Of a DNA stretch of 29,757 nt, positions 1,011-29,757 are shown piece after piece. Source of the DNA: a virus; the IMG/VR virus record IMGVR_UViG_3300008517_000102, positions 1 through 29,757 of that record; one strand, 5' to 3'. Numbering within the stretch: the stretch's first letter is position 1; each line of letters begins with the position of its first letter. Below the pieces are notes generated by a model that saw only the letters and a list, made by a program, of their open reading frames with translations, made no database searches and was not told where the DNA came from. The position numbers and the translations under genes were made by a program.

Positions 1011-4000
1011 TTATTCGAGCCAGACCTTTAGATTTCTAACTCTTCCGTTTAGTGTAAGCGTATCTTGAAAGTTGTCACCTATTCTGATTGAGCATTCCGT
1101 TGTATCGAAATCACAAGTACCAGTACGATTAGTATATACATTGCCAATATTACTGTCGTCAATCCATAGGTCCATGTTGCTCATGTCACCCGTATCAATG
1201 TGAAATTTAACCTTATGCCAATCTGTAAAATCTACAGGATCGAGAGCAGTGTAAATATAGCGAAGACCAGCAACACTATCCCATAGCGCTGCTCCTACTT
1301 TACCTGCGCTATAATACACGGCAAATCTATTAGCCGTACTACCAGTAAGAGCACTACTAATTTCTACCATTGATTTACTTCCGCCAGCTTCGGCAGATCC
1401 GCTGTACTCAAGATTACATTCAAACTCCATCGTAAGTTTCTTCCAGTATTCGCTATTCCCAATCACAGGAGGATCAATCAAACGTCTGGGTTGGCTATAG
1501 ATACTGTGTGGAGTTTCTGTCGTGTCATCTCCAATGAATGTCTCATAGAATTCATCATGCTGGGCTTCAGTCAATACAGTGCCGTCTTCGTAATTCAAGT
1601 AATGAATCTTGCCATTATGTTTGTAAGCTCCAGTACTTACAGCTCCTATACTAAGGCCGACTCCTACATTCTTGGTAGGGCCAACTGCAATATCTGAGCT
1701 AGCAGTATCAAGTGCATTTACATATAGTCTCAACTTGCTAGTACCTGCACCTACATACTCATACGTTGCAGTAATTACTACATATTCGCTTGTAGTAATA
1801 TTTCCTTTCTGTACGGAAGTTCCAACACCTGCAGCATTGAATATTCTAAAGAAGATATCATCGCCAGCAGTACGAGTAAGTTGCCATCCTCGTTCAGTAG
1901 TAGTGTTGTCCTTGCACATAATAACGCCATCACCTGAGATTGAATCTGTTTGTACAATAGCCTGCACACTGAAACTCCCAGCAGGGTCGAAGGTTCCATC
2001 GTCTGCTCTAGTGAGATAATCATTGGTTCCATCAAAGTCCCACATATATCCACGTCGCACACCATCACCAATATTGTTATTCCATCCAGTCGGATATGTG
2101 TCGTCAGGAAGTCTAGTTGGAGTTCCACTGACTGTCATGATGTAAGCGCCAGTCTCGGTAGTATAAGTAGCTCCTACATCTTTCTCAAAATAGATTTCCA
2201 TAAGAGGATTGCCAGGGGGATTGATTTCTCCCATAGGTCTTAGAGGAAGAACCATCGTATTTGGCTGACGAGCTATAGGGGTGCCATCACAACTATGATA
2301 TTCTGTGGCATATAATTCAGTACCACTAGAACCAGATATTTCGAATTGGGCTCCATAAATATATATTGAATCTTGGCTCAATCCTAGATAAACAACACCA
2401 CCATCACCAGTCGCAGTATAGATTCTGCAACTACGTAATGCAGTAGCACTCGCTGTAAATGTCATAACACATCTATACCAACCATTATCTAAAGCCTCTA
2501 TATGTCCAACAGATCTAACAGCGGTACCGACTATACCGTTAACAATATCAAAATAACAGCTATGATCACCGGGAGCATCATCGTTTAGATAGAGATAAAT
2601 CCAGCTTCTATTCGCAGGTTTAACATATACAGAAAGTACATAGTCTTGACCAACAACAAGATTGTTATCAAGTTTGACACCGTGTTGACCATTGGCATTA
2701 TCTTCAACAATCACATGCGTTAATCCATCTCGTGCTGGGCTAGTTATGGTAGCATCTAGATTCACGGTACAAAGATATTTAATCCATTGAGTAAAATCCC
2801 AAGAATATCTATACATATTGATTCCTGGATATTCAACTATCACTCCACCACCCTTACCTCCAACTCTAGGAACATTGATCCCGAAGGGAGTGGTAGGAGT
2901 ATTCACTGATAGCTGAGTTATAGAAGCATCCGACAAAGTGTGATGACCACTAGGTTCATCAGCTGGAATGGGTGTATCATAAAACCAGTAACGTTGCGGT
3001 TTATTTTTGTTGCTTGTACCAGTAGCTATACCTAGCAGGTGTTCTCTTTCCTCGACTAGCTCCTGAATAGTTAAATATTCTTTGTCTACCCGCAGATAAG
3101 CTATCTCTCCGGGGAAAGGATTAGCTCCTGCACTATCGGCCCCAACAACCCAGGCTCTGGCTCCATCAATCCCATAGGTAGCAATATTCGAACCGCCTCC
3201 TCCAGGATGTCCGTTTGCATATATATCAAGGTGACTAGAAATATTTCTTGTCATCTGTAAGACATACCAAGAATTAGTCCGTATCGAATTTACACCTGTA
3301 CCTGGCCCTATTTCAGCTGCAGCCTTACTGTAGTAAGCGTTTATTCTATTATTGGGAGCATCATATCGAACCACTACCCCATCAACAGTTCTAGAACCAT
3401 GAGCGAACAGGACAGAATTAGTATCAGAATCAAGTCTGAATAGAATAGTTATAGTATGTTCTCCATCAAAAATATTCATGCTCGCATCGTGAGCCATAGA
3501 GAAGTATTGATTGACTCCATTTAAATTGGCAGACTGTAGTCTACTTCCTTGATAAGATTGGATTATACTAGGTATATGGGTAGGAGCATTTGATGGTTGT
3601 AAATCCATTCTATAAATAATATCTGCGTCAGTTGGATGATAGATTCCAACATTAGGGATAACATTATCTGTGTTCTCTACAATCAAAGCTCCATATGCAT
3701 GACATACACCAGAAGCTACTCCAGTTCGACCAGGTACAACTACTAGAGAAACCGTTTGAACACCCACTAGTGAGGTGCAAGTACCATTTACCGAAAATCT
3801 TTTCCAAGTATTAGTTACACTAACATCTTTTACTTCGAGTTGGGCTATTCCATCTTCAATCAAAATGATAGTGCAGAGATGTGGTATATCTGCTCTGAGA
3901 TATACACTGGCGGTAAATGTTCTTCCTTGAAGTACTCCTAGAGCAGGAGTATAACTTCGTCTATATCCGCTGCTATCTCCGGTATTGTCTAGCTTATCAG

Positions 4001-4270: not shown

Positions 4271-6433
4271 TTAGCCCTTGTTAGCTGTATACCATACATT
4301 TACAGTAGTTGAAGTGTCGCAATCTGCTTCAATGTAGAGATATCTAAAACTATTGCTCATGATACCGGCATAACAAATCGCACCGGCAGCTAGAGTGTCA
4401 CTCCAACCCTGAGTACGGAAACCACCATATCCAGCCGCGACAGCACCAGGAAGGGCTATCCAAGTAGCACTATCTGGGGAAACTCGAAGAGTCAAAGCTG
4501 TGAGAGGAGCGCCACCGCTATTTTCAACAGTTACTGTCCAATTGATATCGTTGAGAATTTCTATAGCAGCTAGAATGGTTGTCGGGGCACTTACTGTAGT
4601 CGGTCCAGTCTTTGCTGGAGCTACTATTGCTACTTCTTCTTTCTTAACCTTACGCCAGTCATTACCTGAATCTTCACCAGGAAGTAATGCTCCCTGTAGT
4701 ACATAGAGCTGACCATTTACGTCTGTCTTCAATACGGTAGGATCGCTACCATCAGTACCAACTGCAAGCTGTCCATCTGTACCAACAGCTAATGGTCTGA
4801 ACGAATCAACATAATCATAACCCAACATCAAGCTAGTGGTTACTAATGAATTGGTTGTTCCAGCTAATGTACTGGTTGGAAAATCATCTAGTATATCTGC
4901 TAGTACGGTTGAATCTCCATCCTGTAGTCTAAGATATCCGGGCGAGGCTGTGTTATCTAGGAAGCCAGCAGCACCATCACTAAGTTCCACATGAATAGGA
5001 TTGCCTACAGCATTGGCGGCTGCATCTGCGCTGACCTTTACGGCAGTGAGGGATTGCTCAGCTATATCTGTCGCCATCGCATTGCCAGCACTAACATTAA
5101 CTCCTCTTTCGTTACCAGCTGCATCGCGAATAGTCATATATTGATTTCTGTTGGCTGACATCCTTGCGATACCAACATCGTTCTCGTCTACTGGATCTGT
5201 TGCTACATCGTCAAATCTGAATCCGGCTGCCATGACACCATCAGAACCTGGAGTAAAGATTGCATCGTCTTGATGAACAGCATTCTCGATAGTCTCTACA
5301 GCAATTACTGCGAGATCGTTATCAGCCAGCGTAACAGTCTGGGTTCCAGCATCTCTATTACCGCCATTGACGTTTACTGCAACTCCGCCAACCATATCCG
5401 TATCTGAAGTTACCCAGATTCTATTGCCCGTGGCATTGACAGCCGCATCTTTGCTGACTTGATATCTGGCATCACTGGCAGGAGCAGTAGAGATTGAGTT
5501 AGCTCCAATAGCCGAACCCAGCGGACCAGTAAGATAAGTATCCATGGCACCAGCAGTAATTCCTGCTCTGTCCCAAGTAGCACCATCGAATCCCATGAGT
5601 CGAGAATAAGTTACCAGACCCTTGATAGCATTGGCTTCATTATCTGCGCCAGCAGCTACAACATCAACCGAATTCAAAGAATCACTGATTCTAACGAAGA
5701 TAGGATTACCTTCTACGTTAGCATTAACATCCTTGGAAACTTGGAATCTAGCATCCGTAGGAGGAGCAACAGATACCGAAGCAGCTTCAAGCTGAGAACC
5801 TAGCGGTCCAACTACATCAATCTGCAGTTCTCCGCCAGCGTCAGTCTTGAGATATGTAGCGTTAGCGCCGTCATGACCAGCTAATAGTTGACCAGCTACA
5901 TCTGTAAGCAAGTAGTATGGTCCACCAGCACCGATGTCATCACCAACCATAGAAGTCCCGCCACCTACTGTTTCTAATTTACCAGCAGCATCAGTCTTTA
6001 GTTTGGTAGCCGCAGCACCATCCCAACCTAGATAAAGAACTCCGTTAGCATCTGACAATAGAAGCTGGGGATTGGCTCCATCGTGAGCCATATAGAGTTG
6101 ACCGTTTACATCAGACAACGCATAGTATGGTCCACCGGCTAGAGGATCATCACAGATCTTCATCCCCGTGCCATCATTCAGGATTATCTTGCCAGTGTTA
6201 TCTGTAAGAATAAATTGTTCGTTTACTCCATCATGGCCTATATAAATCTGGCCAGCAGCATCACTCAAGATAGATAATTGAGTAATACCATCATTGCAAG
6301 GCTTAACATCTGTAGCAACACCGCCACCACCGGTTACGGCTAATGAACCATCAGTGGAACATTTGACCGGGACCATTGTGGTTACGCCGCTAACTGGATG
6401 AGTATATTGTGCTTTTAGGACTTCTCCGCCCAT
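4271..6433 (-). CDS. Repeat-built virion structural protein, fibre-like
   Basis: This 720-residue protein contains several internal repeats. Units of the form 'L-[ST]-D-x2-G-Q-[IL]-x2-[AG]-H-D-G-x-N' occur at residues 56-71, 106-121 and 176-191, and 'LKTD-x2-G-x-L' at 146-153, 196-203 and 568-575. A longer unit starting GPLGS and containing DAR-[FY]-QVSKD occurs at 209-247 and 303-341, with a partial third copy near 461-482. Residues 279-289 (LMGFDGATWDR) match a motif recurrent in phage virion proteins. The C-terminal ~110 residues look like a non-repetitive beta domain. The repeats suggest an extended fibre, collar or head-fibre-like protein; attachment site and partner are unknown. AGGAGG upstream fixes the start. 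Confidence 0.8.
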   Translation of the reverse strand: MGGEVLKAQYTHPVSGVTTMVPVKCSTDGSLAVTGGGGVATDVKPCNDGITQLSILSDAAGQIYIGHDGVNEQFILTDNTGKIILNDGTGMKICDDPLAGGPYYALSDVNGQLYMAHDGANPQLLLSDANGVLYLGWDGAAATKLKTDAAGKLETVGGGTSMVGDDIGAGGPYYLLTDVAGQLLAGHDGANATYLKTDAGGELQIDVVGPLGSQLEAASVSVAPPTDARFQVSKDVNANVEGNPIFVRISDSLNSVDVVAAGADNEANAIKGLVTYSRLMGFDGATWDRAGITAGAMDTYLTGPLGSAIGANSISTAPASDARYQVSKDAAVNATGNRIWVTSDTDMVGGVAVNVNGGNRDAGTQTVTLADNDLAVIAVETIENAVHQDDAIFTPGSDGVMAAGFRFDDVATDPVDENDVGIARMSANRNQYMTIRDAAGNERGVNVSAGNAMATDIAEQSLTAVKVSADAAANAVGNPIHVELSDGAAGFLDNTASPGYLRLQDGDSTVLADILDDFPTSTLAGTTNSLVTTSLMLGYDYVDSFRPLAVGTDGQLAVGTDGSDPTVLKTDVNGQLYVLQGALLPGEDSGNDWRKVKKEEVAIVAPAKTGPTTVSAPTTILAAIEILNDINWTVTVENSGGAPLTALTLRVSPDSATWIALPGAVAAGYGGFRTQGWSDTLAAGAICYAGIMSNSFRYLYIEADCDTSTTVNVWYTANKG

Positions 6434-6449: not shown

Positions 6450-8936
6450 TTACGCTGCCCGTTTAGCCTCAATAGATTGGGCTTTGGTTTGGTTCGCGAC
6501 GGACATTCTTGATACTTTCGCTCCTCTAGGACCCGCAGGCGGAGGCATCCCCTGAGTAGGTCCTTCAGGCCTGAGATTCATTTGAGCCTGTGCAATAAAC
6601 TCTGGAGTAAGAGTTGAATCCATTGGCATTCCGAGTAAATAAGTTAGTTGGACTTTCATAGTATAAGAAATTGGTTCTTTCCTCGCTGCTACAGCATCCA
6701 TAATATCTGTAACCATCTTAGCATATAGCCGGGGATATACTTCTCTGACTGTCTCAACTGCTTCCCTAGAAATACTCGCGTGTGTAAGATCTTCTAATAC
6801 ACTGAGAGGATCTTCCACGGCTACGATTCTACGAAAGAATTTTGTTAATTCTACTTCGCTGATATATGGCTGTTTCCCTTGTAAAGCATCTACTGTATTA
6901 AGACTCATTGCACTCGGCATGGTAGCCAGCAAATGAGATACCGCTTTCTGTACTGTCATGTTCAGATCCTGAGCTATATCAGGAAATTCTTCTTGCAGAT
7001 TTGCTAGATTAGCGTTCATTCTTTCTTGTAAGACTTCAGGATCAGCAAGCGGCTTTAATTTGCTTGAAATATACTGGAAGGTTTCTTGTTTGTTTTGGAG
7101 AATATCTTTTCTTGTCTTTTTCTTTTCGCCTTCACGCCAAGCCTCATATGCCCTAACTCCGATAGATGCACCGACAGGTGCCCGATACTTAGTTTTCATT
7201 AGAGCTTGAGTAATCTTGCGTTCTATAATCCAATCAACCATATTAGTAATACGATGAAATCCTTTAATAATTGAAGCAGGATTGCGTAATGCTTGAGTAA
7301 GAGCACCAATACCAATTGCACCCTTAAAGCCACCACCGAGAAGATAAGCTAGACCTCCTGTGAGTCCACCAGGGAGTAATTCTGAAAGTGCTCCTTTAGC
7401 CGGTTCTCCTAAACCAGCGAGTTTTATTTCAAGTCGTGCCGATGATTCAGCTAGAGGTAAAGAATCATCTAGTGCCTTTGTAATGTCCGCAATATCAATA
7501 GTTTTCTTTAGTTTAGGATCCCACCATTTTATAACGGGAACTTTATTCTTGGATATAGGCAATTTAGGATTAGTTAAAGACTCATATAGTTTTTCTGAAG
7601 CTTTAACTTCTCTTTGTATATTTTTTAAGAAACTTACTCGGTTAGGACCTCGTAATTGTTCTCCGAAAAAATCAGTATCAAATAATTTTTCTCTATAAAG
7701 CTTTCTGTTGCTTATACGAATCTTATTATATTCTTGTCCGTGTTTTACAAGTTGCTTTACTGCCTTAGTTTGCTCTGATGTGAATCGTTTTGAGAATTCT
7801 AAAAGTTCTTCTGATGGTACAGCTAATTGCCCTTTCTTCAAACTTTTTGCCGCTGCTTCTGCTGCAGTTATTGGCGGTCTAAGAAGGGCTCTAACTTCTT
7901 CCTGTGCCACAAGAATACTTCTATCAAATCTTTCTCCGCTTTTTGCGATAGTCTCAGCAAAATCAGGAAGATTTTTGTGCCAATCTATTGCTGCTTGACG
8001 AGCTTCTTTGTTCTCTAAAAATTCTCTAATAACTTTTCTATCCCTACCGGACACTAATCCGCTGAGAGAAGCATATATATCTTTTGTTTTACCAGTTAAA
8101 CCAGGGAAAGGTTTATAAGCTCCAACTACTGCTGGTGCCCTTTCACCAAAGACTAGCCCCTTAACTGCTGGAAGCCCTACCCCCATAATTCCGCCAATTA
8201 AAGCACCCATCCCCATATAGGCAGCTGTCTCTTCAGAGAGTAGAGGTTTATCTTTGAGAACTGATTCACTAAGACCTATACCAGCACCATAGACCCCACC
8301 CTCTAATGCGACAGGAACTCCCTTGGAAATTCCCTTAGCAATAGCTCTCTTCACTAGACTGGGACTGGCAGTAGTCTTAAGAGCACTAGCCAATTTAGCT
8401 TCTAACTGAGCAGCCATCTTAGCCGTTTGAGCTGTAGGAGCTTTAGAAAATATCTGTTTGAGTATCCCTCGTCCAGTTCCAGGAGCAGCTGCTCCACCAG
8501 ATACAACTACGGGAAGCACAGCACCTGTTATCTCACTAGCAAGACTAATTTTGGGACTGGCAGTTCTCCAATTGTCGAGTTCCTCAGGAGTATAGATTCC
8601 AGCCTTTGTTAGAGCCAAATCACTACCACCAAAGGTCAAGCCTCTTGCAGCGCCTAGCAGAGCTGCACTAAGTTCTCCTGACTTGCCACCGTATTCCTGC
8701 TTAACCCAGCCATGATGTTCCATCTCTCTAGATTCAAAACCCCAGCCTAGATCGAATACTTGCTTCATGTTCTCAGGATTGAAATCTACAGACACAGTTT
8801 CACCAGCAGGGCTGACTATATTAATCTTTGGGCTTTCGTCTGAAGCATAGTCAAACCACTGATCGCTCATTACGGCGTCATAGATTTCCTGAGGAGTGTA
8901 TTCTTGTACTCCGCCGGCACCAGTTACCTTGGGCAT
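6450..8936 (-). CDS. Large internal virion / DNA-ejection protein
   Basis: This 828-residue protein is interpreted as an ejection-type protein carried in the particle. Its N-terminal ~110 residues (YTPQEIYDAV, a VxVDFNPENM segment, then GAARGLTFGGSDLAL at 95-109) follow a pattern I associate with podovirus internal proteins. Glycine-rich hydrophobic segments at ~136-148, 240-264 and 521-548 could insert in a membrane, as expected if it helps form a DNA conduit across the cell envelope. The middle (~290-500) is charged and helical. The last ~35 residues are proline-rich and then basic. No lytic transglycosylase or peptidase motif is visible. It closes a four-gene helical block downstream of the nozzle gene, the usual position for ejection proteins. 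Confidence 0.75.
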   Translation of the reverse strand: MPKVTGAGGVQEYTPQEIYDAVMSDQWFDYASDESPKINIVSPAGETVSVDFNPENMKQVFDLGWGFESREMEHHGWVKQEYGGKSGELSAALLGAARGLTFGGSDLALTKAGIYTPEELDNWRTASPKISLASEITGAVLPVVVSGGAAAPGTGRGILKQIFSKAPTAQTAKMAAQLEAKLASALKTTASPSLVKRAIAKGISKGVPVALEGGVYGAGIGLSESVLKDKPLLSEETAAYMGMGALIGGIMGVGLPAVKGLVFGERAPAVVGAYKPFPGLTGKTKDIYASLSGLVSGRDRKVIREFLENKEARQAAIDWHKNLPDFAETIAKSGERFDRSILVAQEEVRALLRPPITAAEAAAKSLKKGQLAVPSEELLEFSKRFTSEQTKAVKQLVKHGQEYNKIRISNRKLYREKLFDTDFFGEQLRGPNRVSFLKNIQREVKASEKLYESLTNPKLPISKNKVPVIKWWDPKLKKTIDIADITKALDDSLPLAESSARLEIKLAGLGEPAKGALSELLPGGLTGGLAYLLGGGFKGAIGIGALTQALRNPASIIKGFHRITNMVDWIIERKITQALMKTKYRAPVGASIGVRAYEAWREGEKKKTRKDILQNKQETFQYISSKLKPLADPEVLQERMNANLANLQEEFPDIAQDLNMTVQKAVSHLLATMPSAMSLNTVDALQGKQPYISEVELTKFFRRIVAVEDPLSVLEDLTHASISREAVETVREVYPRLYAKMVTDIMDAVAARKEPISYTMKVQLTYLLGMPMDSTLTPEFIAQAQMNLRPEGPTQGMPPPAGPRGAKVSRMSVANQTKAQSIEAKRAA

Positions 8937-8956
8937 ATGGATTTACCTTTCCTTGC

Positions 8957-10873
8957 TTAGTATGTTGGCTCGCCTTTACCAGACCATTTCGTAGTTTTCA
9001 TCGGCTGAAACATTCCAGTAGAAATACCTATTTTTTGCATACCACCCAACATACCGGAGTGTTTACGCTGGATAAAGTTTATCATGGCTTCAATGTTTTT
9101 CCTGCCAGTGTCCAGAGTATCGCTAGCTTTAGGCAGCATCTGCATGAACCATTCACGCTCTTTATCGGTAACCTGAGCACCCGAGAATGATCGGATGATA
9201 TCGGCAATAAGAGGTCTAACTAGCTTATCGTAATTGGTTGCATTAGTAGCAGCAATGAAGTCAGGGAAATATTGCATTACAACATCAGGCATATAGGCTG
9301 ATTGACCCTTAAGTACTCTATGAGCATCTCCGAGAGCCAGTACGCCTTCGTGTGCTTTTTCCCATAGACCTAATTCGATAGCAGTTTTCTCAGTCATCTC
9401 TCTGGGCTTCTTTCCTCTTGATGCCATAAGCTGAGCCCAACCCAATCTCATTGTCTGTGCATGAGCAGCTGCACGTTCCTCAAGCTCCATCTTCCTGAGA
9501 TTCTGAGTATCTAGCTTAAGCTGGAAATCAAACATAAGTTGTTCATGCTGTTGTGCTAGCAGAGCCTTTGCCTGCATCGCTCGTTCCTCAATTTCTCGAC
9601 CTTTATACTTAGCTGCAGTTATATCTATTTGTCTACCTAGCATCTGAGTAAGAGCAAGCTTGGCTGCATCGTCTGCCAGAGCTTCATCTTTGAATAGATT
9701 CCGCATCATGGCTACAGCATTATAACGCATATCAACGGCTTTACCTAGCTTGGCAATCTCGGCTTTCTGAGCATCTATGTTCTGATCGATAGCTTTATTA
9801 AATGCGAGGATAGCCATATTAGGCATAGCCTGCCGACCATGCTGACTCTGGAAGTATTGCCCTAATGCACCAAGGGCTAGACCAATAAAACTCATGACAG
9901 CCTTACCAGGATCTTTGAAATGCTTCATGGGATCAATCTCAGCAGAGGCATATGTCTTCTGGGCATCTTCAAGTTTACCCATTTCGTCTTCCATCATTGC
10001 CTGTCTAATCATCTGCTTTTTCTCAGCTTCTAATTCTTTTGCTCGTAGTTGCCCTTCCATTTCTTCCATATAACCTAGTTCTTCTTGGGCTTTTTCCTTG
10101 CCAGTCTGGGCAGATATATCTACAGCAAGTTCTTGCATTCTTGCAAGCTCAGCTGCGGATTTAATGGGCTTAGCTGCTATGGCTGCATATTCCTCTTGTG
10201 GAGTTGGAGCAGCAGCACTAATATCCGTTACTCCGAGCATCTCTTTCTGCTCAGGAGTTAGTTTTGCAAATTCAGATTGTAGAGTTTCATAAGGAGCTAA
10301 ATACTGAGCTGCGCGTTCACCGGCTGCCATACGTTCCTCTTCCAATTGCGTTCCTAATCGAGTAAGTTTTCCAGGATCTCTAACACCCGATACTCTACCG
10401 CCAACACCGGCTCTTTCCATACCAGCTTGAGCAGGAGGAGCCTTGGGTACTATTCCACCCTCGCCAGGAGTACGTTTACGCAGTCCACGCTTCTCAGGAG
10501 GAACGCCTCTTGATACATACTTAGGCTCTCCGGTAATGCTGGGCTCTGCTACAACCTTCATATATTTCTTTTGCCATTCTTCTGCAGCTTCCATTGCCCT
10601 AGTCATATCCCAACCCTTAGACTTAGCAATACGTTTGGCCATTTCGGCTTTCTGTTGTTCTGGATCTTTCATCTGTATAATGTCTTCGTATTTGAAAAAT
10701 TCAGCTGTTGGAGTGGGAACTATTGGGGTCACTTCTAGAGGAGGTTCCACTATTGATGTGGGCTCCAGGATAGCACCTGCTCCTCGTGATTGGGCGTCCA
10801 TCCATTCGGCTAGAGCGAGATTCTTATCAGGCCCCGAAGGCATAGCTATGATTTCATCGTAACTAAGAGGCAT
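8957..10873 (-). CDS. Helical internal virion protein
   Basis: This 638-residue, Ala/Glu/Lys/Gln-rich protein is mostly long predicted helix. Residues ~322-395 hold a small Gly/Ala-rich segment (FIGLALGALGQYF) followed by AFNKAIDQNIDAQKAEIAKL. The 'AID-x2-IDAQK' signature recurs in phage internal or ejection proteins. The N-terminal ~160 residues are proline-rich and low in complexity, and ~260-310 and 425-475 look like coiled coils. The start codon overlaps the previous stop as TAATG with GGAGG just upstream, so translation is probably coupled to the 244-residue neighbour. The role is inferred from composition and position; no enzyme motif is seen. Confidence 0.75.
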   Translation of the reverse strand: MPLSYDEIIAMPSGPDKNLALAEWMDAQSRGAGAILEPTSIVEPPLEVTPIVPTPTAEFFKYEDIIQMKDPEQQKAEMAKRIAKSKGWDMTRAMEAAEEWQKKYMKVVAEPSITGEPKYVSRGVPPEKRGLRKRTPGEGGIVPKAPPAQAGMERAGVGGRVSGVRDPGKLTRLGTQLEEERMAAGERAAQYLAPYETLQSEFAKLTPEQKEMLGVTDISAAAPTPQEEYAAIAAKPIKSAAELARMQELAVDISAQTGKEKAQEELGYMEEMEGQLRAKELEAEKKQMIRQAMMEDEMGKLEDAQKTYASAEIDPMKHFKDPGKAVMSFIGLALGALGQYFQSQHGRQAMPNMAILAFNKAIDQNIDAQKAEIAKLGKAVDMRYNAVAMMRNLFKDEALADDAAKLALTQMLGRQIDITAAKYKGREIEERAMQAKALLAQQHEQLMFDFQLKLDTQNLRKMELEERAAAHAQTMRLGWAQLMASRGKKPREMTEKTAIELGLWEKAHEGVLALGDAHRVLKGQSAYMPDVVMQYFPDFIAATNATNYDKLVRPLIADIIRSFSGAQVTDKEREWFMQMLPKASDTLDTGRKNIEAMINFIQRKHSGMLGGMQKIGISTGMFQPMKTTKWSGKGEPTY

Positions 10874-16958: not shown

Positions 16959-17639
16959 TTAGTAGCCAATGTCATCGAATCGCCTGTATACATCAACTAC
17001 TCTATTCTCTCCGCCTTCATCCCTGGTTGCAGCCATCTCAATAATTCTTGCTTTGATTTCCGCTTTCTTCATAAGGAAGAATGTGGGATCAGACTCTTCT
17101 TTAGCTAAACATCTAGCAACCACACCGCATACAACGTAGTCTTCCCAGCCAATAGGAATCTGGAAATGTACTGTATCGTTTGGATCTACAAGTCTCTCTA
17201 GCTGAGGAATATACCATAATTCCAGCCTTCCACCTAAGCTAGGAGTCGGGGCAATATAAATCTCGTTACCTTCAACTCGATAGCATAAATCTACTTCAGG
17301 AGCCATAACATAAGCAGAGTAATAATCATTGCTGTATTGATCTAATTCTTCCATCATAAAACGCCGCAGTCTATATCTGTTAGTCCCATCCATATAGAAA
17401 ACCTTGATAGCTTTATAGAAGTCGTCGGGGAGTGCATAGTTCTCTGTATCTCCTGCCAGAGTAATTATTTTCTTGGCAAGGAAGTAATCCTCAAAGCTAT
17501 CGATCAATAGATCATGTAGCTCTGATAACTCAGCATTTATCCAATAGGTTAATCTGATATCGGTAATAAAGCCGCTATCTGTCATATCGGCCTGATCGAG
17601 GATAATTGCTTTAAGCTCTGATAGCTTGAGATCGTTCAT
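16959..17639 (-). CDS. Head-tail adaptor protein
   Basis: This protein (226 residues from the ATG) looks like the adaptor that docks under the portal and receives the tail nozzle. A helical N-terminus (residues ~5-48, ending in a helix with WINAELSELHDLL) is followed by YALPDDFYKAIKVFYMDG, the 'Y-x-LP-x-DF' signature seen in phage adaptor or connector proteins, and then a short beta domain (VEGNEIYIAPTP, LELWYIP) and a C-terminal helix. The frame could begin at a GTG at 17648, but AGGGAG lies eight bases before the ATG at 17639 and abuts the GTG, so I chose the ATG. The ribosome binding site lies within a small hairpin (17645-17658), which may limit translation. Confidence 0.8.
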   Translation of the reverse strand: MNDLKLSELKAIILDQADMTDSGFITDIRLTYWINAELSELHDLLIDSFEDYFLAKKIITLAGDTENYALPDDFYKAIKVFYMDGTNRYRLRRFMMEELDQYSNDYYSAYVMAPEVDLCYRVEGNEIYIAPTPSLGGRLELWYIPQLERLVDPNDTVHFQIPIGWEDYVVCGVVARCLAKEESDPTFFLMKKAEIKARIIEMAATRDEGGENRVVDVYRRFDDIGY

Positions 17640-17644
17640 TAACT

Positions 17645-17699
17645 CCACTCCCTAGTGGTGGAGCTTGGCTTTTGAGGGCCAAGCCCCTTGTGTTTTTTA
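17645..17699. terminator. Strong hairpin pair between decoration and adaptor genes
   Basis: A perfect ten-base-pair stem (one G-U in one direction) is formed by 17660-17669 and 17678-17687, with an eight-base loop. On the plus strand it is followed by a T-rich run (TTGTGTTTTTTAT), the standard layout of an intrinsic terminator for plus-strand transcripts. For the minus-strand genes it is an intergenic hairpin preceded by an A-run; it lacks a good U-tract, so attenuation or mRNA-end protection is as likely as termination. A second small stem (17645-17649 with 17654-17658) covers the adaptor gene's ribosome binding site. Confidence 0.55.
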
Positions 17700-18065
17700 T
17701 TACGCAGTTGAATTGTCAAAAGTGCATCTAAAGTTGATTCGGCCAGCATTCGCAGGGTTAGCTAGAGCAGCACCACTAATATCCCAGAGATTAATTACTA
17801 GGGTCTTAGCAGAAGCAGTATAAACACCAATCTGAGCAAACTGATCGGAAGCTGTTCCAAGCTGAAGAGTAGCAACGGCACTTAGCAGATCGGGCCAAAC
17901 GTCATCAAAAGTAATAGTTACGACACCAGTTGTAGTTTTTACTGCTGTATAACCTTTACCCGTGATATCGCTAACAACCGTAGCTGTTGATACCGCAAAG
18001 CTACCCGCAATCGTGACCGAGCTAACTTCATGTGACTTTACATCGAAAGTAGTTCTCGAAGCCAT
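17700..18065 (-). CDS. Short decoration-like protein, paralogue of the preceding gene
   Basis: This 121-residue protein matches both ends of the 336-residue protein encoded just upstream. Its VTIAGSF (residues 17-23) pairs with IVIAGSF there. From ITGKGYTAVKTTTG to the C-terminus (34-121) it pairs with residues 248-336 almost without gaps, sharing ATLQL, an 'F-x-Q-[IV]-G-x-Y' segment and a closing R-I-N-F. The fold is probably beta. The position right after the major capsid gene suggests a capsid decoration or cement protein. AAAGGAGG nine bases upstream fixes the start; the stop is a tandem TAATAA before a strong hairpin. Confidence 0.8.
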   Translation of the reverse strand: MASRTTFDVKSHEVSSVTIAGSFAVSTATVVSDITGKGYTAVKTTTGVVTITFDDVWPDLLSAVATLQLGTASDQFAQIGVYTASAKTLVINLWDISGAALANPANAGRINFRCTFDNSTA

Positions 18066-18080
18066 AGGATATTTCCTCCT

Positions 18081-19091
18081 TTATGAAGTATTACTCATTG
18101 TCAGGGAAAAGTTGATGCGGTTATTAGCATTAATAGCTACATCTGCTAAAGCTCCATCGCTCTTGTCCCAGATCCAGAATTTCAATGTACGGTTAGCTGA
18201 ATCATAAGTCCCTACCTGCAGGAATTTATCAGCAGCAGTAGCCAACTGTAGAGTTGCATCTGCAGATTCCATGTCAGCATACTGCTCTGCAAGTGTAATT
18301 GTATATTCACCAGTTGAAGTCTTAGCTGGACTGTAGCCATAACCCTTGATTGAACCAAGAGCCACCGCATCTGTTCCGCCAGCTAAAGCTGTAGCACCAA
18401 TTACATCGCCAACCTGCATGACTGTAGCACCAGTACCGCCAGAAGCAGTCATGATTTTATCAACAGCAATACCATTCAACGCAGCCTCGGCTTGTGTAAC
18501 TGTAGTAGCAGCAGCAGTAAAATGAAGTTCTGTTGCAGTACCACTTGAGCTAGCATATTCCTGAGCAGTTCCACCGGTAAGCAATTCGGGAGCAAATTCA
18601 TCATCAGTAGCATCAATCTTACCAGCACCGAGAGTACCAGATAGATATGCGACATTAGTAGCACCATCGAGGGCTGCCTTAAGATCGTCCATATCACTGA
18701 CTCCATCTTCGAAGTCAATGTAAGCAATCTTATCAACAGTATCCTCGGTAAGTCTTACTGCGCCGCCTACTCCAGTACCTCCACCAGCAAACATGCATAC
18801 TGACCAATCGTTCCCACCAGTACCGCCGGAAGCTGCTTCAATGACGAAATCCAATGTAGTGTGGAGACTGGTATCAATATTAGCCTTAGCATTGCCATCG
18901 TTGATAATCTCAATTGTATAAGTATCTCCGACAACACCTGCCGTATCAGCAGTCATGAGAGAGTCTATATCGCTACAAACTCCTCCTAGATCTAAAACAG
19001 ACGCTACTTCATCTACACCCATGCCAAAGGAACCAGCAATAACAATCCTGGAAGGACTTACACTTTTTTCATTACTTCTTAGAGTAGCCAT
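18081..19091 (-). CDS. Long decoration-like protein with internal insertion
   Basis: This 336-residue protein follows the major capsid gene. Residues ~14-35 and ~248-336 form the same framework as the 121-residue neighbour. Between them lies a ~210-residue Gly/Ala/Thr/Asp-rich insert, apparently one or two beta modules (GDTYTIEIINDG near 55-66, LLTGGT near 170-175, ALAGGTDAV near 235-243). 'GGT'-terminated modules of this sort recur in phage virion proteins. The framework probably binds the capsid and the insert projects outward; this is inference. Composition is low in Cys, with no enzyme motif. AAGGAGG upstream fixes the start. The 15-base gap to the 121-residue gene points to co-translation of the two. 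Confidence 0.8.
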   Translation of the reverse strand: MATLRSNEKSVSPSRIVIAGSFGMGVDEVASVLDLGGVCSDIDSLMTADTAGVVGDTYTIEIINDGNAKANIDTSLHTTLDFVIEAASGGTGGNDWSVCMFAGGGTGVGGAVRLTEDTVDKIAYIDFEDGVSDMDDLKAALDGATNVAYLSGTLGAGKIDATDDEFAPELLTGGTAQEYASSSGTATELHFTAAATTVTQAEAALNGIAVDKIMTASGGTGATVMQVGDVIGATALAGGTDAVALGSIKGYGYSPAKTSTGEYTITLAEQYADMESADATLQLATAADKFLQVGTYDSANRTLKFWIWDKSDGALADVAINANNRINFSLTMSNTS

Positions 19092-19117
19092 TTAAGTTCC
19101 TCCTTGTATGGATAAAT

Positions 19118-19144
19118 GGATGGGGTCAACTATAGACCCCATCC
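19118..19144 (-). terminator. Hairpin after the major capsid gene
   Basis: A perfect ten-base-pair stem (19118-19127 with 19135-19144) with a seven-base loop lies 18 bases after the capsid-gene stop. It can be extended by five A-T pairs past one bulged base. The following run on the minus strand (ATTTAT) is a weak U-tract, so this may be a partial terminator or an mRNA-stabilising hairpin that raises capsid mRNA over downstream mRNA. Confidence 0.5.
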
Positions 19145-19161
19145 TTTATCGTATTAATCCT

Positions 19162-20403
19162 TTAGGGTAGGGTGATGTTGCAGTTCGCTGACGGATTTGA
19201 ACAACCGAGCTGCGCGTAATAGCCAACCCGAACCTCATAACCGTCTGCAGCAGCCTGACGAAGAATCCTGTTGCCATCGTCCATCAGAATACCGGGAGCA
19301 GGACCTAGGGAGCAAAGCTTCCAAGTATCCAGCTGAATCATATGGGCAGTAGCTTCAGGACAATCACGATCAGAAACTACCTGCACAGGACCACGGTCAC
19401 CATCGACGATTACCGAACGGAATCCGATATGAGCCATAGCACCCTTAGCATTCTGGGCCTGCAGCTTATCATACTGAACCTTCGCGCCTAGTTCCTTGAC
19501 GAGCTTACGGAACTTCACGGGATTGACCAGACAAACATCAGGTCTTCCGCCCTCAGCCGCTACGATGCTAGCGCCATCAATAAGAGCTTCCTCTACGGTC
19601 GCATAGCCAGAAGCGTCGAGCCGCTGTCCACCAAGGCGAGTATCAGTAGAACGATTCACGCCGAAGAATAATGTAGCACCAGGAGCCGAAGCAGGAATCC
19701 AAGCATCTAGACCAGAAATCTTCTTGTAGCTAACCGCATTGTGAGCGTCACCCTCGACAAACATATAGTCGGTGTTGACAGCCGCAGCAATACCGCCAGT
19801 CCAAGCAGCAGAAGCAGTCAGAGTACCAGTGTCACGAGCAATACCCGCTAGAGTTACGCTGCCCGCACGCACTGCATTGGTCTTCGCATCGGAAAGCACG
19901 ACGTGCTGTCCAACCTCGAAATGCACTACATCAGAAGTCGTTGCCAGAACAGCATCAGTAGTAGCAACGTTCCAAGCACCGTCGCCACGGCCGATTGCAC
20001 CAGTGCCATCCAGGAATAGCGAAGCACTCAGAGAAGCCGCACAAGCGCCAAAAGCACTGTCCATCTTGGCCTTTAGACCGCGAATGAACGCACCCTTGTC
20101 ACTAGCAGAAGCTCGAATAGCCTCTCCGTCGATACCGCATACCGCATAATCACTTACGCGGGTAAGCAGGAAATCCTCGAACGAAGGGGAACCCGCATTA
20201 GACTGGGCAGTAGGGAAATCAGCACTACGGCCCTGGCCATTAGCGTACTTAATAGGTAGAGGCATATTGCGCCCTACGAACCCTTCAAACTTGGCTACCA
20301 TAGCCATAAAGGGGTGATCCTGGTAAGTAGCATCCTCAACACCAGTACCCTTGTACAGAGTCTTAAGGACAGGATCTAGACTAGTCATTGTAATATTAGC
20401 CAT
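19162..20403 (-). CDS. Major capsid protein
   Basis: This 413-residue protein is the probable major capsid protein, forming the icosahedral shell (HK97-type fold inferred). It lies directly after the scaffold gene and before the decoration-like genes, the standard order. The sequence fits: a short N-terminus with VLKTLYKGTG, a region with HPFMAMVAKFEGFVGRNMPL, a central IDGEAIRASASD helix, a FLDGTGAIGRGDG loop, and a C-terminal domain with DVCLVNPVKFRKLVKELG and a VVSDRDCP stretch. Sampled lines are clearly richer in G+C than those of neighbouring genes, consistent with codon selection in an abundant protein. AAGGAG lies eleven bases from the ATG. Hairpins flank the gene on both sides. Confidence 0.9.
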   Translation of the reverse strand: MANITMTSLDPVLKTLYKGTGVEDATYQDHPFMAMVAKFEGFVGRNMPLPIKYANGQGRSADFPTAQSNAGSPSFEDFLLTRVSDYAVCGIDGEAIRASASDKGAFIRGLKAKMDSAFGACAASLSASLFLDGTGAIGRGDGAWNVATTDAVLATTSDVVHFEVGQHVVLSDAKTNAVRAGSVTLAGIARDTGTLTASAAWTGGIAAAVNTDYMFVEGDAHNAVSYKKISGLDAWIPASAPGATLFFGVNRSTDTRLGGQRLDASGYATVEEALIDGASIVAAEGGRPDVCLVNPVKFRKLVKELGAKVQYDKLQAQNAKGAMAHIGFRSVIVDGDRGPVQVVSDRDCPEATAHMIQLDTWKLCSLGPAPGILMDDGNRILRQAAADGYEVRVGYYAQLGCSNPSANCNITLP

Positions 20404-20489: not shown

Positions 20490-21494
20490 TTATTCGATTG
20501 AGTTAAACACCTTGAGTGCCGCTTCGATGCGTTCCTCTTCGGTTACATGCTCTTCAGCATTCTTCCTCTGACTAACTGAGGTGCCTAACTTGTTGGTTAA
20601 TGTCTCTGTTGATTTACCAGCAGGAGTCTTCTTTTTATCCTTGTCATTAACAGGCGGCTTCTTCTTATCTTTTTCGCTACCATCAGGGTTCAAGAGCTTC
20701 TTAGCATAAGTTGTCTGCATCGTATTCTTAAGCTCTTCCCTGAGATAATCCTCAATCGCTTTTACCGCCTTTGCAGGTTCAAGAATCTCTCCGTGCTCGG
20801 CATACCACAACTCTGCATATTGCAGAGCCTCAGCCGTTGCATTCTGCGTTCTTACTAGCTCAAACTCTTCGGCCTGAGCTGCCTCTTCTATTTGCTCGTA
20901 GTAGGCATTAAGAGCAACCTTGTTCGCGTCGGCTTTCGCTTGCTCCTCAAAGGATGACTGTTTCTTTTCATTAGCTTCTATTCGCTCTAGAAGCTCCTTC
21001 TTTGTTCGCTCGACTTGGGACGAGGCATTGTCTTCTTTAGAACCTAGAATTTTTGCCGTCCAGTCCTCGTATGTGATGCCCATCTTCTCAAGATAATCAT
21101 ACGGATTCGCTTTGAACTGCTTGATAAATTCATTCACTTCTTTGACTTCTTGGTTCTGGGTCTTTAGCTCCTGTTCTCTCTGGCGTAGATCAGCTTCTCT
21201 TTTGTCAACCATTGCCCAGGATTTCTCTAGCTTTTCAACTAGTTCCTTCGCAGTTTTCTTTTCCTCGTCTTTTCCGTCTGACTCATCCTCTGCTGATTCG
21301 TCTTCATCTGCTTGATCGTCTGGCTTAGGATCGGGTTTCTCATCGGTTGTTTCATCGTCAGGTTCGGGATCGGGAGTTTCATCTGCATTAGCTTCATCTA
21401 CATTTTCTGCAGTTTTCTCTGCTTCAATCATCTGAATAGCTTCATCAATTCGTGCAGCTTCCGCTTCTGCCGCATCATAGTTCTCTTCACTCAT
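20490..21494 (-). CDS. Scaffolding protein
   Basis: This 334-residue protein is the probable internal scaffold for capsid assembly. The first ~80 residues are very acidic (repeated Asp/Glu/Pro). Residues ~80-150 and 165-250 are long charged helices with coiled-coil character, and residues ~270-300 are Lys-rich (KKKPPVNDKDKKKTPAG). There is no Cys and very little hydrophobic core, as is usual for phage scaffolds. Its position between portal and major capsid genes is the classical one. AGGAGG six bases upstream of the ATG fixes the start. No protease domain is fused to it, and no separate prohead protease gene is visible nearby. Confidence 0.85.
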   Translation of the reverse strand: MSEENYDAAEAEAARIDEAIQMIEAEKTAENVDEANADETPDPEPDDETTDEKPDPKPDDQADEDESAEDESDGKDEEKKTAKELVEKLEKSWAMVDKREADLRQREQELKTQNQEVKEVNEFIKQFKANPYDYLEKMGITYEDWTAKILGSKEDNASSQVERTKKELLERIEANEKKQSSFEEQAKADANKVALNAYYEQIEEAAQAEEFELVRTQNATAEALQYAELWYAEHGEILEPAKAVKAIEDYLREELKNTMQTTYAKKLLNPDGSEKDKKKPPVNDKDKKKTPAGKSTETLTNKLGTSVSQRKNAEEHVTEEERIEAALKVFNSIE

Positions 21495-21551
21495 TTTGTC
21501 CTCCTATATTCCTAATCGCTTTGGAATAGGTTAGTTCGCTTGTGGCTAATA

Positions 21552-23402
21552 TTACGTCTGCCCCAGAGGTACTCCTGGGGGAACTACTGGCATTCCTGCC
21601 GGTAATGCTCCACCAGCAATTGGTGCTGGAGGTGGTACTGCCGCCTCAATGGGTGGAACTTCTCCCGGAAGTGGCATTGGAGGTTCTGGAGGTCTCACCA
21701 AATCAATTGCTTGAGCCATCCAATCTCTCATCAGAGATAATTTGTTCTCTTCAACTTTATTCATCTTTGCTTGGATATAACTGGTCTGCATAAATCTAAC
21801 GCCATAATCCAGGTCAAAGAAAGGCTCTGGGGGAACAAATGTATTTTTTTCTAGAATCATATAAACAATATGTTTCATAATATCCTGTGGTGCATTCAAG
21901 CGAGATGTAACACTCTCTAGATCCGGGAAGTCTAATAGTGAAAGTGCATGTTCCTGCATCTGAGGAATAGCTGTCACTAATTCCTGTACCGACTGTAATC
22001 TAGCAGCAGGAGTCTTAGGTAGGAAGCTAGTGGGGAATGCCTGCATGATGTATGAATCCTCATCCAGGTTTACCTCTTCCCAAGAAATCTCTCGAAGCTT
22101 ATTGCCGACCTTAGATAGAATCTTGTAAGAACCTTCTCCTCGCTCATCGATTCTCTTTGCAAGCTTAATCATTTGACGGGCGACTGCTAGATGGAATCTA
22201 TCCCAAGCCTGACTCTGATGCTGGAATCTCTGAGACTGAATATCATTTACTTCTCTCAAGGCGACACCGGCTGTAATCCCAGGCTCTTTTCTGCTTATTG
22301 CCGCCATCTGACTAATACCAATCAGCTCAAATGCTTTATTCCATAATCTCTCTAGCTGCTGATAATACTCTGGGCTAATTGCCTGAATAGCCACAGGAAT
22401 TGGAGGCTTAGCACCCTTGGCATATTCAACTACAGATATATCCTCATTGGTCATATTACCCTTATTGGTGCTAGTCCCTTTCTCCATAAAGATCTTGGTT
22501 GAAGCTAGATTCAAGTGTCTCTGAATCTTCTGAAGAATGTAATTGATTTCAACCTGAGTATCTCTGAGAATCTCACAGATGCCCTGGCCGTAATATCCCA
22601 ATGGACGAGGATTCCAACGAAAGATCGCAAAGGGAAATTCTTCGTCTTCCCAAGGTTCGTCTAGCAGCGTGCAACCATCAATACAAATAACATGCCTGCC
22701 ATCTTTAGCATCTTTTCTTGAAGGAAGATACCAAGCTTCTAGAACTCCGACTGGCTGCGAGTGTTGAATCAGCCATGATTCAGTTCCTCTTATTTTACCA
22801 GCGTCAAATATTTCACTCTTGAGTTCAGGATATTGAGCTGCAAGAATACCCTTGTCAACTTCTTTATATTGATATAGAGAGCGGGGTTTTGAATACTTTC
22901 CTTCTATATCGTCGATAATTATCTCGTCTGGAAAGACTCTTTCTACAACAATATCTCCATCTTGTTCGAAAATCTTGGCGAACCCAGTACCAAAAATCTC
23001 ACCATCTCTGAAGACTTCTGGGCTTGTTGAATAGACGTTTGCTTTATAGAATTGGCCATCAGTGAAATAAGTCAAGTTTTTTGCCTTCTGCTGTACTTTA
23101 TAATTGCCATCAAAAGTATAGAACTGAATTCTTGTTCTATTGGTAGCAATCAAAGCCTGAGCAGTATCGATAGCACTTTGAATTACATTCATCTTTAGCC
23201 TATTACGCGGGAGCAACTCTTCTTGCATATAGTCAGTAGAACTTAACCCCAGCACAGCTAGGTTGCTATACAATCTAAGATTCCTTAGATTGGCTTCCCG
23301 GCGGTAGCTTTGATTTTCATCTAAGCTCTTAAAATGACTGACTAAAGAATGAGCCAGTTCCTCGTCTTTAGTTTCTGGACTCCACCATTGTTCGTCATAC
23401 AT
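21552..23402 (-). CDS. Portal protein
   Basis: This 616-residue protein is the probable portal, the ring at one capsid vertex through which DNA enters and leaves. The N-terminal half matches podovirus portals: a helical YRREANLRNLRLYSN region, LLPRNRLKMNVIQSAIDTAQ (residues ~63-82), a 'SPEVFRDGEIFGTGFAKIF' region and FPDEIIIDD before the clip. The centre holds the usual long helix with the GISQMAAISRKEPGITAGVA loop. The last ~45 residues are a Pro/Gly-rich tail, possibly a flexible barrel extension. It follows a small 68-residue gene and precedes the scaffold. The ribosome binding site (GGGAGCGGA) is moderately strong. Confidence 0.9.
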   Translation of the reverse strand: MYDEQWWSPETKDEELAHSLVSHFKSLDENQSYRREANLRNLRLYSNLAVLGLSSTDYMQEELLPRNRLKMNVIQSAIDTAQALIATNRTRIQFYTFDGNYKVQQKAKNLTYFTDGQFYKANVYSTSPEVFRDGEIFGTGFAKIFEQDGDIVVERVFPDEIIIDDIEGKYSKPRSLYQYKEVDKGILAAQYPELKSEIFDAGKIRGTESWLIQHSQPVGVLEAWYLPSRKDAKDGRHVICIDGCTLLDEPWEDEEFPFAIFRWNPRPLGYYGQGICEILRDTQVEINYILQKIQRHLNLASTKIFMEKGTSTNKGNMTNEDISVVEYAKGAKPPIPVAIQAISPEYYQQLERLWNKAFELIGISQMAAISRKEPGITAGVALREVNDIQSQRFQHQSQAWDRFHLAVARQMIKLAKRIDERGEGSYKILSKVGNKLREISWEEVNLDEDSYIMQAFPTSFLPKTPAARLQSVQELVTAIPQMQEHALSLLDFPDLESVTSRLNAPQDIMKHIVYMILEKNTFVPPEPFFDLDYGVRFMQTSYIQAKMNKVEENKLSLMRDWMAQAIDLVRPPEPPMPLPGEVPPIEAAVPPPAPIAGGALPAGMPVVPPGVPLGQT

Positions 23403-24219: not shown

Positions 24220-24690
24220 TTACTCTAAAGTCCGGGCGTTCATGAAAAAAACGTCATCAGTCAATCCGCCGATTGGATCTAGACGTATAAATCCTATAAT
24301 AACATGAGAAGTATCAGGAGTGATTGCCGCACTAATATCAAAATCTCTATAGGCCGTCCAGAGCGTCTCGCCTCCAACAGCACTTCCTCCGCCTGACCAA
24401 GTCCAACGCTCATCGTCCCAGGTCTGCACACCGGTATATATTTCAGCAAACTCGTCCATACCGTAAACTATTACATCAAAGTCTGTATAGCCAGCGGCTT
24501 CAATGGTTCCAAACATCGCCCTTAGGGTTAGAGGAGTCACACCGCGTAATTCTACAGGTACATATAGGGTAACTAGAAAGAAACCATCTCCACCCGTACC
24601 AATCTGTATTCCCCAGCCGTCTTGGGACATATCAACCTGATTGATTTCATATTCAGCTCTACCGGGCAATGCCTCTATAAAGGTTCCCAT
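24220..24690 (-). CDS. Beta-rich family member 2
   Basis: This 156-residue protein is closest to the 146-residue upstream neighbour. They share LYVPVELRG (42-50) against VYLPVNLRT, DFDISAAITPDTSHVIIGF (116-134) against DIDISSCCDADTSHLTIEY, and a C-terminal FFMNARTL against MFVNSYTL. Spacing between the shared blocks is nearly the same, so this looks like tandem gene duplication. A beta-sandwich is inferred. The start overlaps the upstream stop as TAATG, with GGAGG seven bases before it. No function is assigned; a virion surface component is plausible. Confidence 0.75.
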   Translation of the reverse strand: MGTFIEALPGRAEYEINQVDMSQDGWGIQIGTGGDGFFLVTLYVPVELRGVTPLTLRAMFGTIEAAGYTDFDVIVYGMDEFAEIYTGVQTWDDERWTWSGGGSAVGGETLWTAYRDFDISAAITPDTSHVIIGFIRLDPIGGLTDDVFFMNARTLE

Positions 24691-25130
24691 TATTCAACCT
24701 CCACTTGCTGCGTTACCAATGTATACGAATTGACAAACATAGCTTCATGACCCAAGGTATCTGCTGGATTAGTACCGGTTCGTTGATATTCGATAGTTAG
24801 ATGAGATGTGTCGGCATCGCAACAAGAACTTATGTCGATATCATAGTAATGTTGTTCCCATGTAAGAGCAACACTAGAAATTGTAACATCATTGTCCCAT
24901 GTGCCTTCTAATACAACTGTATCTGTTAACTCATCAACGGAGTAAACCCTAATCCTGGTCCGAATATCCCCAATAGCCTTGGGGGCTACTCCCTCGTCGT
25001 TTCGTGCCCAAAAAGTTCTAAGCCATAACAAAGGAGCTGTTCTTAGATTAACGGGCAGATATACGCAAACAGAGGTCACTTCGTCGATATCGGGGTCGTA
25101 TGCTAAACCACCTCGTTGGAGAGTAGGCAT
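24690..25130 (-). CDS. Beta-rich family member 1
   Basis: This 146-residue protein heads the three-gene family. Its blocks are VCVYLPVNLRTAPLLWLR (residues 21-38), DIDISSCCDADTSHLTIEYQR (97-117) and EAMFVNSYTL (129-138). The adjacent Cys103-Cys104 pair is not shared with the others. Both ends overlap neighbours as TAATG, with the very strong ribosome binding site GGAGGAGG upstream, so it is expressed with the zinc-binding protein before it and the family member after it. No named family is recognised. A jelly-roll virion protein is my inference. Confidence 0.75.
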   Translation of the reverse strand: MPTLQRGGLAYDPDIDEVTSVCVYLPVNLRTAPLLWLRTFWARNDEGVAPKAIGDIRTRIRVYSVDELTDTVVLEGTWDNDVTISSVALTWEQHYYDIDISSCCDADTSHLTIEYQRTGTNPADTLGHEAMFVNSYTLVTQQVEVE

Positions 25131-29682: not shown

Positions 29683-29757
29683 CTGTCTCTTATACACATC
29701 TCCGAGCCCACGAGACTAGGCATGATCTCGTATGCCGTCTTCTGCTTGAAAAAAAAA
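29683..29757 (+). other. Illumina Nextera adapter, index and poly-A (sequencing artefact)
   Basis: CTGTCTCTTATACACATCT (29683-29701) is the Tn5 mosaic-end sequence. It continues with the read-through of the Nextera i7 arm (29702-29716), an eight-base index TAGGCATG (29717-29724, matching Nextera N706), the P7 flow-cell tail (29725-29748) and nine A bases. None of this is phage DNA. Real sequence ends at 29682. Confidence 0.97.

Follow-up and report, generated by a model that had tools for sequence, protein, structure and literature searches.

Two adjacent genes in the head module of an uncultured phage look like one gene and the same gene enlarged by an insert, which raises three questions: how the two proteins are related, whether the short or the long form came first, and what such a pair might do on the particle. 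We studied them in a window, i.e., the whole stretch of 29,757 nt analyzed here (IMGVR_UViG_3300008517_000102), the source of which is a podovirus-like phage. The head-gene module is on the minus strand, in the order portal, scaffold-like, major capsid, 336-aa gene, 121-aa gene and head-tail adaptor (Table 1), with 15 bases separating the 336-aa and 121-aa genes. The capsid protein passes the curated cut-off of NF033394 (91.4 versus 80 bits). Upstream of the portal gene, the window also contains another two adjacent paralogs (24220-24690 and 24690-25130; 29% identity over 129 aa, E=2e-10).

We found a single near-identical record of the same phage, IMGVR_UViG_3300028837_000116 (37,145 bases), which is 100% identical to the window where compared. 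The comparison indicates that the window is incomplete and circularly permuted: it lacks ~7.3 kb of the longer record, a stretch of small genes falling between the window ends, and the last 75 bases of the window (29683-29757) have no match there. No third family copy was found in the longer record, and its additional ~7.3 kb contains no further family members.

Table 1. Coordinates of the head-gene module and of the parts of the long and short proteins in the window.
Feature	Position	Strand	Basis or remark
Portal protein	21552-23402	-	Pfam P22_portal, E=5.5e-11
Scaffold-like protein, upstream of the capsid gene	20490-21494	-	Position and acidic, charged composition only
Major capsid protein, immediate upstream neighbour of the 336-aa gene	19162-20403	-	NCBIfam NF033394 capsid_maj_Podo, E=5.9e-26; Pfam SU10_MCP
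Strong 10-bp hairpin between the capsid and long genes	19118-19144		91-nt region folds at -29.1 kcal/mol, z=-3.9
Ribosome-binding site AGGAGG of the long gene	19099-19104		Directly upstream of the gene
Long paralog P0002, 336 aa, with inserted domain	18081-19091	-	ORF
N-terminal arm of the long protein, residues 1-30, motif IAGSF	19002-19091	-	Shuffle test; conserved in family alignment
Insert of the long protein, residues ~31-245	18357-19001	-	227-aa spacer versus 7-17 aa in short relatives
C-terminal domain of the long protein, residues ~246-336	18084-18356	-	46% identity to the short protein; conserved in the family
Ribosome-binding site AGGAGG of the short gene	18075-18080		Directly upstream of the gene
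Short decoration-like protein P0001, 121 aa	17700-18065	-	ORF; member of the short capsid-linked family
Head-tail adaptor, downstream neighbour of the short gene	16959-17648	-	Pfam SU10_adaptor, E=2.8e-16; position kept in relatives

The tandem pair and its insert

Residues 28-120 of the short protein align with residues 242-336 of the long one (BLASTP, 95 aa, 46% identity, E=1e-21). At the other end, short residues 10-32 match long residues 9-31 ('KSHEVSSVTIAGSF' versus 'KSVSPSRIVIAGSF') with a score of 40, which was equalled in 8 of 5000 shuffles, and long residues 9-31 are the best ungapped site for this N-terminal stretch across the whole long protein. The two conserved motifs lie 12 residues apart in the short protein but 227 apart in the long one, which gives a net insert of ~215 residues. 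The earlier note had matched the short protein to long residues ~14-35 and ~248-336, with ~210 residues absent between them; BLASTP, the N-terminal shuffle test and the motif spacers agree with these boundaries within a few residues. These alignments identify the two proteins, of 121 and 336 aa, as paralogs arranged in tandem. A common fold of the short protein and the two ends of the long one is very likely, because both ends are homologous in sequence. The AlphaFold models have confidence too low to give a usable fold (pLDDT of 52 for the short protein and 35 for the long one); all-beta secondary structure is predicted for the short protein at pLDDT 52. Foldseek searches with this low-confidence model gave no PDB fold match, and the best BFVD match (E=0.028) was not significant.

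A second long-short pair was found in IMGVR_UViG_3300049893_001818 (L102, L106), in the order capsid (445 aa), long (342 aa) and short (124 aa). The capsid and short proteins of this phage have 26% (E=7e-17) and 37% (E=4e-22) identity, respectively, to those of the window, and its long protein, P0005, aligns with the long protein of the window through the insert (33% over 251 residues). When the two inserts were compared alone, the score was 131 versus a shuffle mean of 51.7 (0 of 3000 shuffles, z=9.7), which identifies them as homologous. Because a homologous insert is at the same place in both proteins, one insertion that predates the split of the two long-short phages is the more probable history, and transfer between phages is a less probable one. 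A scan keyed to conserved insert stretches had matches in these two phages only, and no Pfam, PHROG or PDB relation was found for the insert. An internal repeat considered in the insert was dropped, since 72 of 300 shuffles and then 220 of 2000 were as good.

Short relatives and the direction of change

Named phages, IMG/VR and bacterial genomes were searched directly with either protein or with the shared domain, and no relatives beyond the same phage came up. The family was first reached using a hand-made degenerate DNA pattern for G-x-G-[FY]...T-G-x-Y-x-[IV]-T; a profile screen and a profile-guided scan came next. The pattern matched 57 stretches, about 22 of which encode clear relatives according to a profile of the two window domains, and the profile-guided scan added further members. 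The resulting family is present in ~35 contigs, not counting the window phage and the second long-short phage, and all of them are viral and uncultured. Scans of bacterial genome contigs gave no relatives, and neither did the stretches read of the distant capsid relatives Shocker, Jasmine, DS1, ctLwi270 and ctEqG8 (actinobacterial and spring-water phages); homologs were not found in named phage records, and all members known to date come from uncultured contigs. A capsid-linked protein family, absent from every public profile library searched, is now defined.

The short relatives are 120-140 aa long and have an N-terminal arm (consensus MASRxFxxVQALNxExKxIAGxF) and a C-terminal domain common to all; according to the family alignment, both conserved parts are kept in both window proteins. 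One copy per contig was found in 21 of 22 whole contigs, and a second copy in the other; the NF033394 capsid family is present in 18 of the 22. In most loci with a readable neighbourhood, the capsid gene is followed by the short gene and then by the adaptor. There is one clear exception to this cassette, G011 (IMGVR_UViG_3300047554_000608), in which the short gene is ~16 kb from the capsid gene (4635-4994 and 21056-22264). It should be noted that a gene for a GIY-YIG homing endonuclease (Pfam E=2.2e-10) lies between the capsid and short genes in L056 (~1700-2360) and L058 (~8300-8985); the capsid frame of L056 is also interrupted.

Aligning the homologues, the course that the earlier note had proposed for deciding whether the short or the long form is ancestral, gave spacers of 7-17 residues in 31 unique short sequences (including the short protein of the window and a few sequences truncated by contig ends), and of 226 and 227 residues in the only two long forms found. 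Three further entries do not count among these: they are a truncated piece of the second long form and proteins of more distant relationship. More distant proteins with the same C-terminal motif were met in L051 (8039-8548), L064 (4439-4948), L026 (638-1039) and L050 (3-2363), and in some of these cases it closes a long protein of the tail-fibre-like type.

Among the relatives, the short form is common and the most widely distributed, and the long form is therefore derived by gain, as a domain insertion. The earlier note had suggested a duplication followed by domain insertion or loss: duplication and insertion are retained, whereas loss is not, given a widespread short form and only two long ones. 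For the long form to be ancestral, and the short protein to have arisen from it by loss of the middle, one would have to rely on a tree too weak to order the four members of the two long-short pairs, against ~35 other contigs that carry only short forms and against a spacer that is short throughout the tree, with long forms confined to the group of the two pairs; we regard this course as extremely improbable. The four proteins of the pairs form one group in the tree (94/94 support, not starred), but alternative branchings among them all fit the data (p-AU 0.28 to 0.45), so the duplication may predate or postdate the split of the two phages. A tandem pair of a different kind was detected in IMGVR_UViG_3300005654_000014 (L076), in the order portal, scaffold-like, capsid, short, short and adaptor. 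The order is like that of the window, except that a second short copy takes the place of the long gene, and this pair may represent a separate duplication.

Possible roles on the particle

Genes for head decoration proteins typically, although not universally, adjoin the major capsid gene, and their products have compact beta-rich folds (Ig-like, beta-tadpole or similar) that are very diverse in sequence. In the window and in most relatives, G011 excepted, the gene lies next to the major capsid gene. Because this place is kept in most relatives, and because of the position, the size, the predicted beta content and the precedents of phages GP4 and Sf14, we favor, as rather probable, the reading that the two genes encode short and long head decoration (cement) proteins. 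Characterised decoration proteins in Pfam, PHROGs, NCBIfam or PDB gave no sequence match to the family.

For these proteins we infer capsid binding, trimers, outward display and adhesion, as follows. The conserved N-terminal arm and the C-terminal beta domain would attach to the outside of the capsid, probably in trimers located at three-fold positions. Plain cement would be the role of the short copy, while the long copy would fill some of the sites, bearing the extra ~215-residue domain, which would leave the loop between arm and body, point outward and perhaps bind cell or environmental surfaces. Two lengths of one capsid-bound protein could be displayed on the particle in this way.

A different assignment is suggested by the weak resemblance of the family to the C-termini of tail fibres, because of which a fibre or neck role is possible: the proteins would be head fibres or neck whiskers, with domains of the fibre-tip type present in few copies at the vertices or the neck, and the long one would be an adhesin. 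The family profile weakly matches C-terminal parts of tail-fibre-like proteins, family members have a weak match to PHROG 11355 (tail fiber, best E=0.0015), longer tail-fibre-like proteins of other contigs also have the motif GxGF...TGxYxITF in their C-terminal part, and the next gene is the head-tail adaptor. The shared C-terminal motif may reflect a common origin of head and fibre domains. However, the family members are short, single-domain proteins with a conserved N-terminal arm of their own, and their genes directly follow the capsid gene rather than being among the tail genes, and we consider a fibre or neck role unlikely.

The functions of the two copies could also differ more deeply, with the short protein alone being virion cement, and the long copy being a diverged duplicate with another job, e.g., in assembly. 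This would agree with an insert whose one known relative is that of the second long form, and with the divergence of the C-terminal domains of the window pair to 46% identity. Conversely, the long copy has kept both flanking conserved parts in two distant phages, beside the capsid gene, and the long gene of the window has a good ribosome-binding site; such a division of labour seems less likely still than the fibre or neck role. Returning to decoration by both copies, a more specific scenario, which we put forward tentatively and with some doubt, is that a head adhesin evolved by duplication of a cement protein and insertion of an undescribed domain into a loop leaving the capsid surface. The shell would then be a mosaic of two arm lengths, an arrangement that distant phages with homologous inserts have kept.

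The dosage of the pair relative to the capsid may be set by the hairpin between the capsid and long genes (Table 1), via partial termination. In L076, a strong hairpin in the corresponding place (3563-3600) is terminator-like and is followed by a T run; given this resemblance to an intrinsic terminator, read-through may be what allows expression of the decoration genes.

Comparison with known head modules

The capsid, portal and adaptor families of the window match those of phages with the NF033394 capsid_maj_Podo protein and of SU10/P22-like head modules; the difference is the decoration-like family, for which no homolog was found in named phage records. Among characterised cement proteins, gp1 of the Ralstonia podovirus GP4 is a 157-aa Ig-like protein that forms 180 trimers at quasi-three-fold sites, and it was compared with Pam1, lambda and KHP30 (PMC9698820). 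It is short, mostly beta and numbered beside the major capsid protein (gp1, gp2), and in this it resembles the short protein of the window, for which all-beta structure is predicted at low confidence; GP4 has one copy per capsid subunit. In contrast, gp1 has no detectable sequence relation to the window proteins, for which capsid binding is proposed, and it is the single cement protein of GP4, whereas the window has a short and a long one.

Phage Sf14 has two decoration proteins, gp33 and gp20, one of which has extra Ig-like domains; their origin was called unclear, and recombination between phage genes was suggested (PMC11821841). The window pair is similar to these proteins, and to T4 Hoc and T5 pb10, in the proposed presence of two decoration proteins per head, one with extra outward domains. 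However, the description of those proteins is of different types that have Ig-like domains in addition to the one that binds the capsid (PMC11821841), whereas the window proteins are paralogous to each other and carry the additional residues in a loop flanked by conserved parts. Stages of a route other than the one suggested for Sf14 are visible among the relatives: a single short gene, a tandem short-short pair, and a long-short pair whose insert occupies a fixed loop. If the proteins do decorate the head, the loop would be a natural site at which a capsid-bound protein can carry a domain of ~215 residues.
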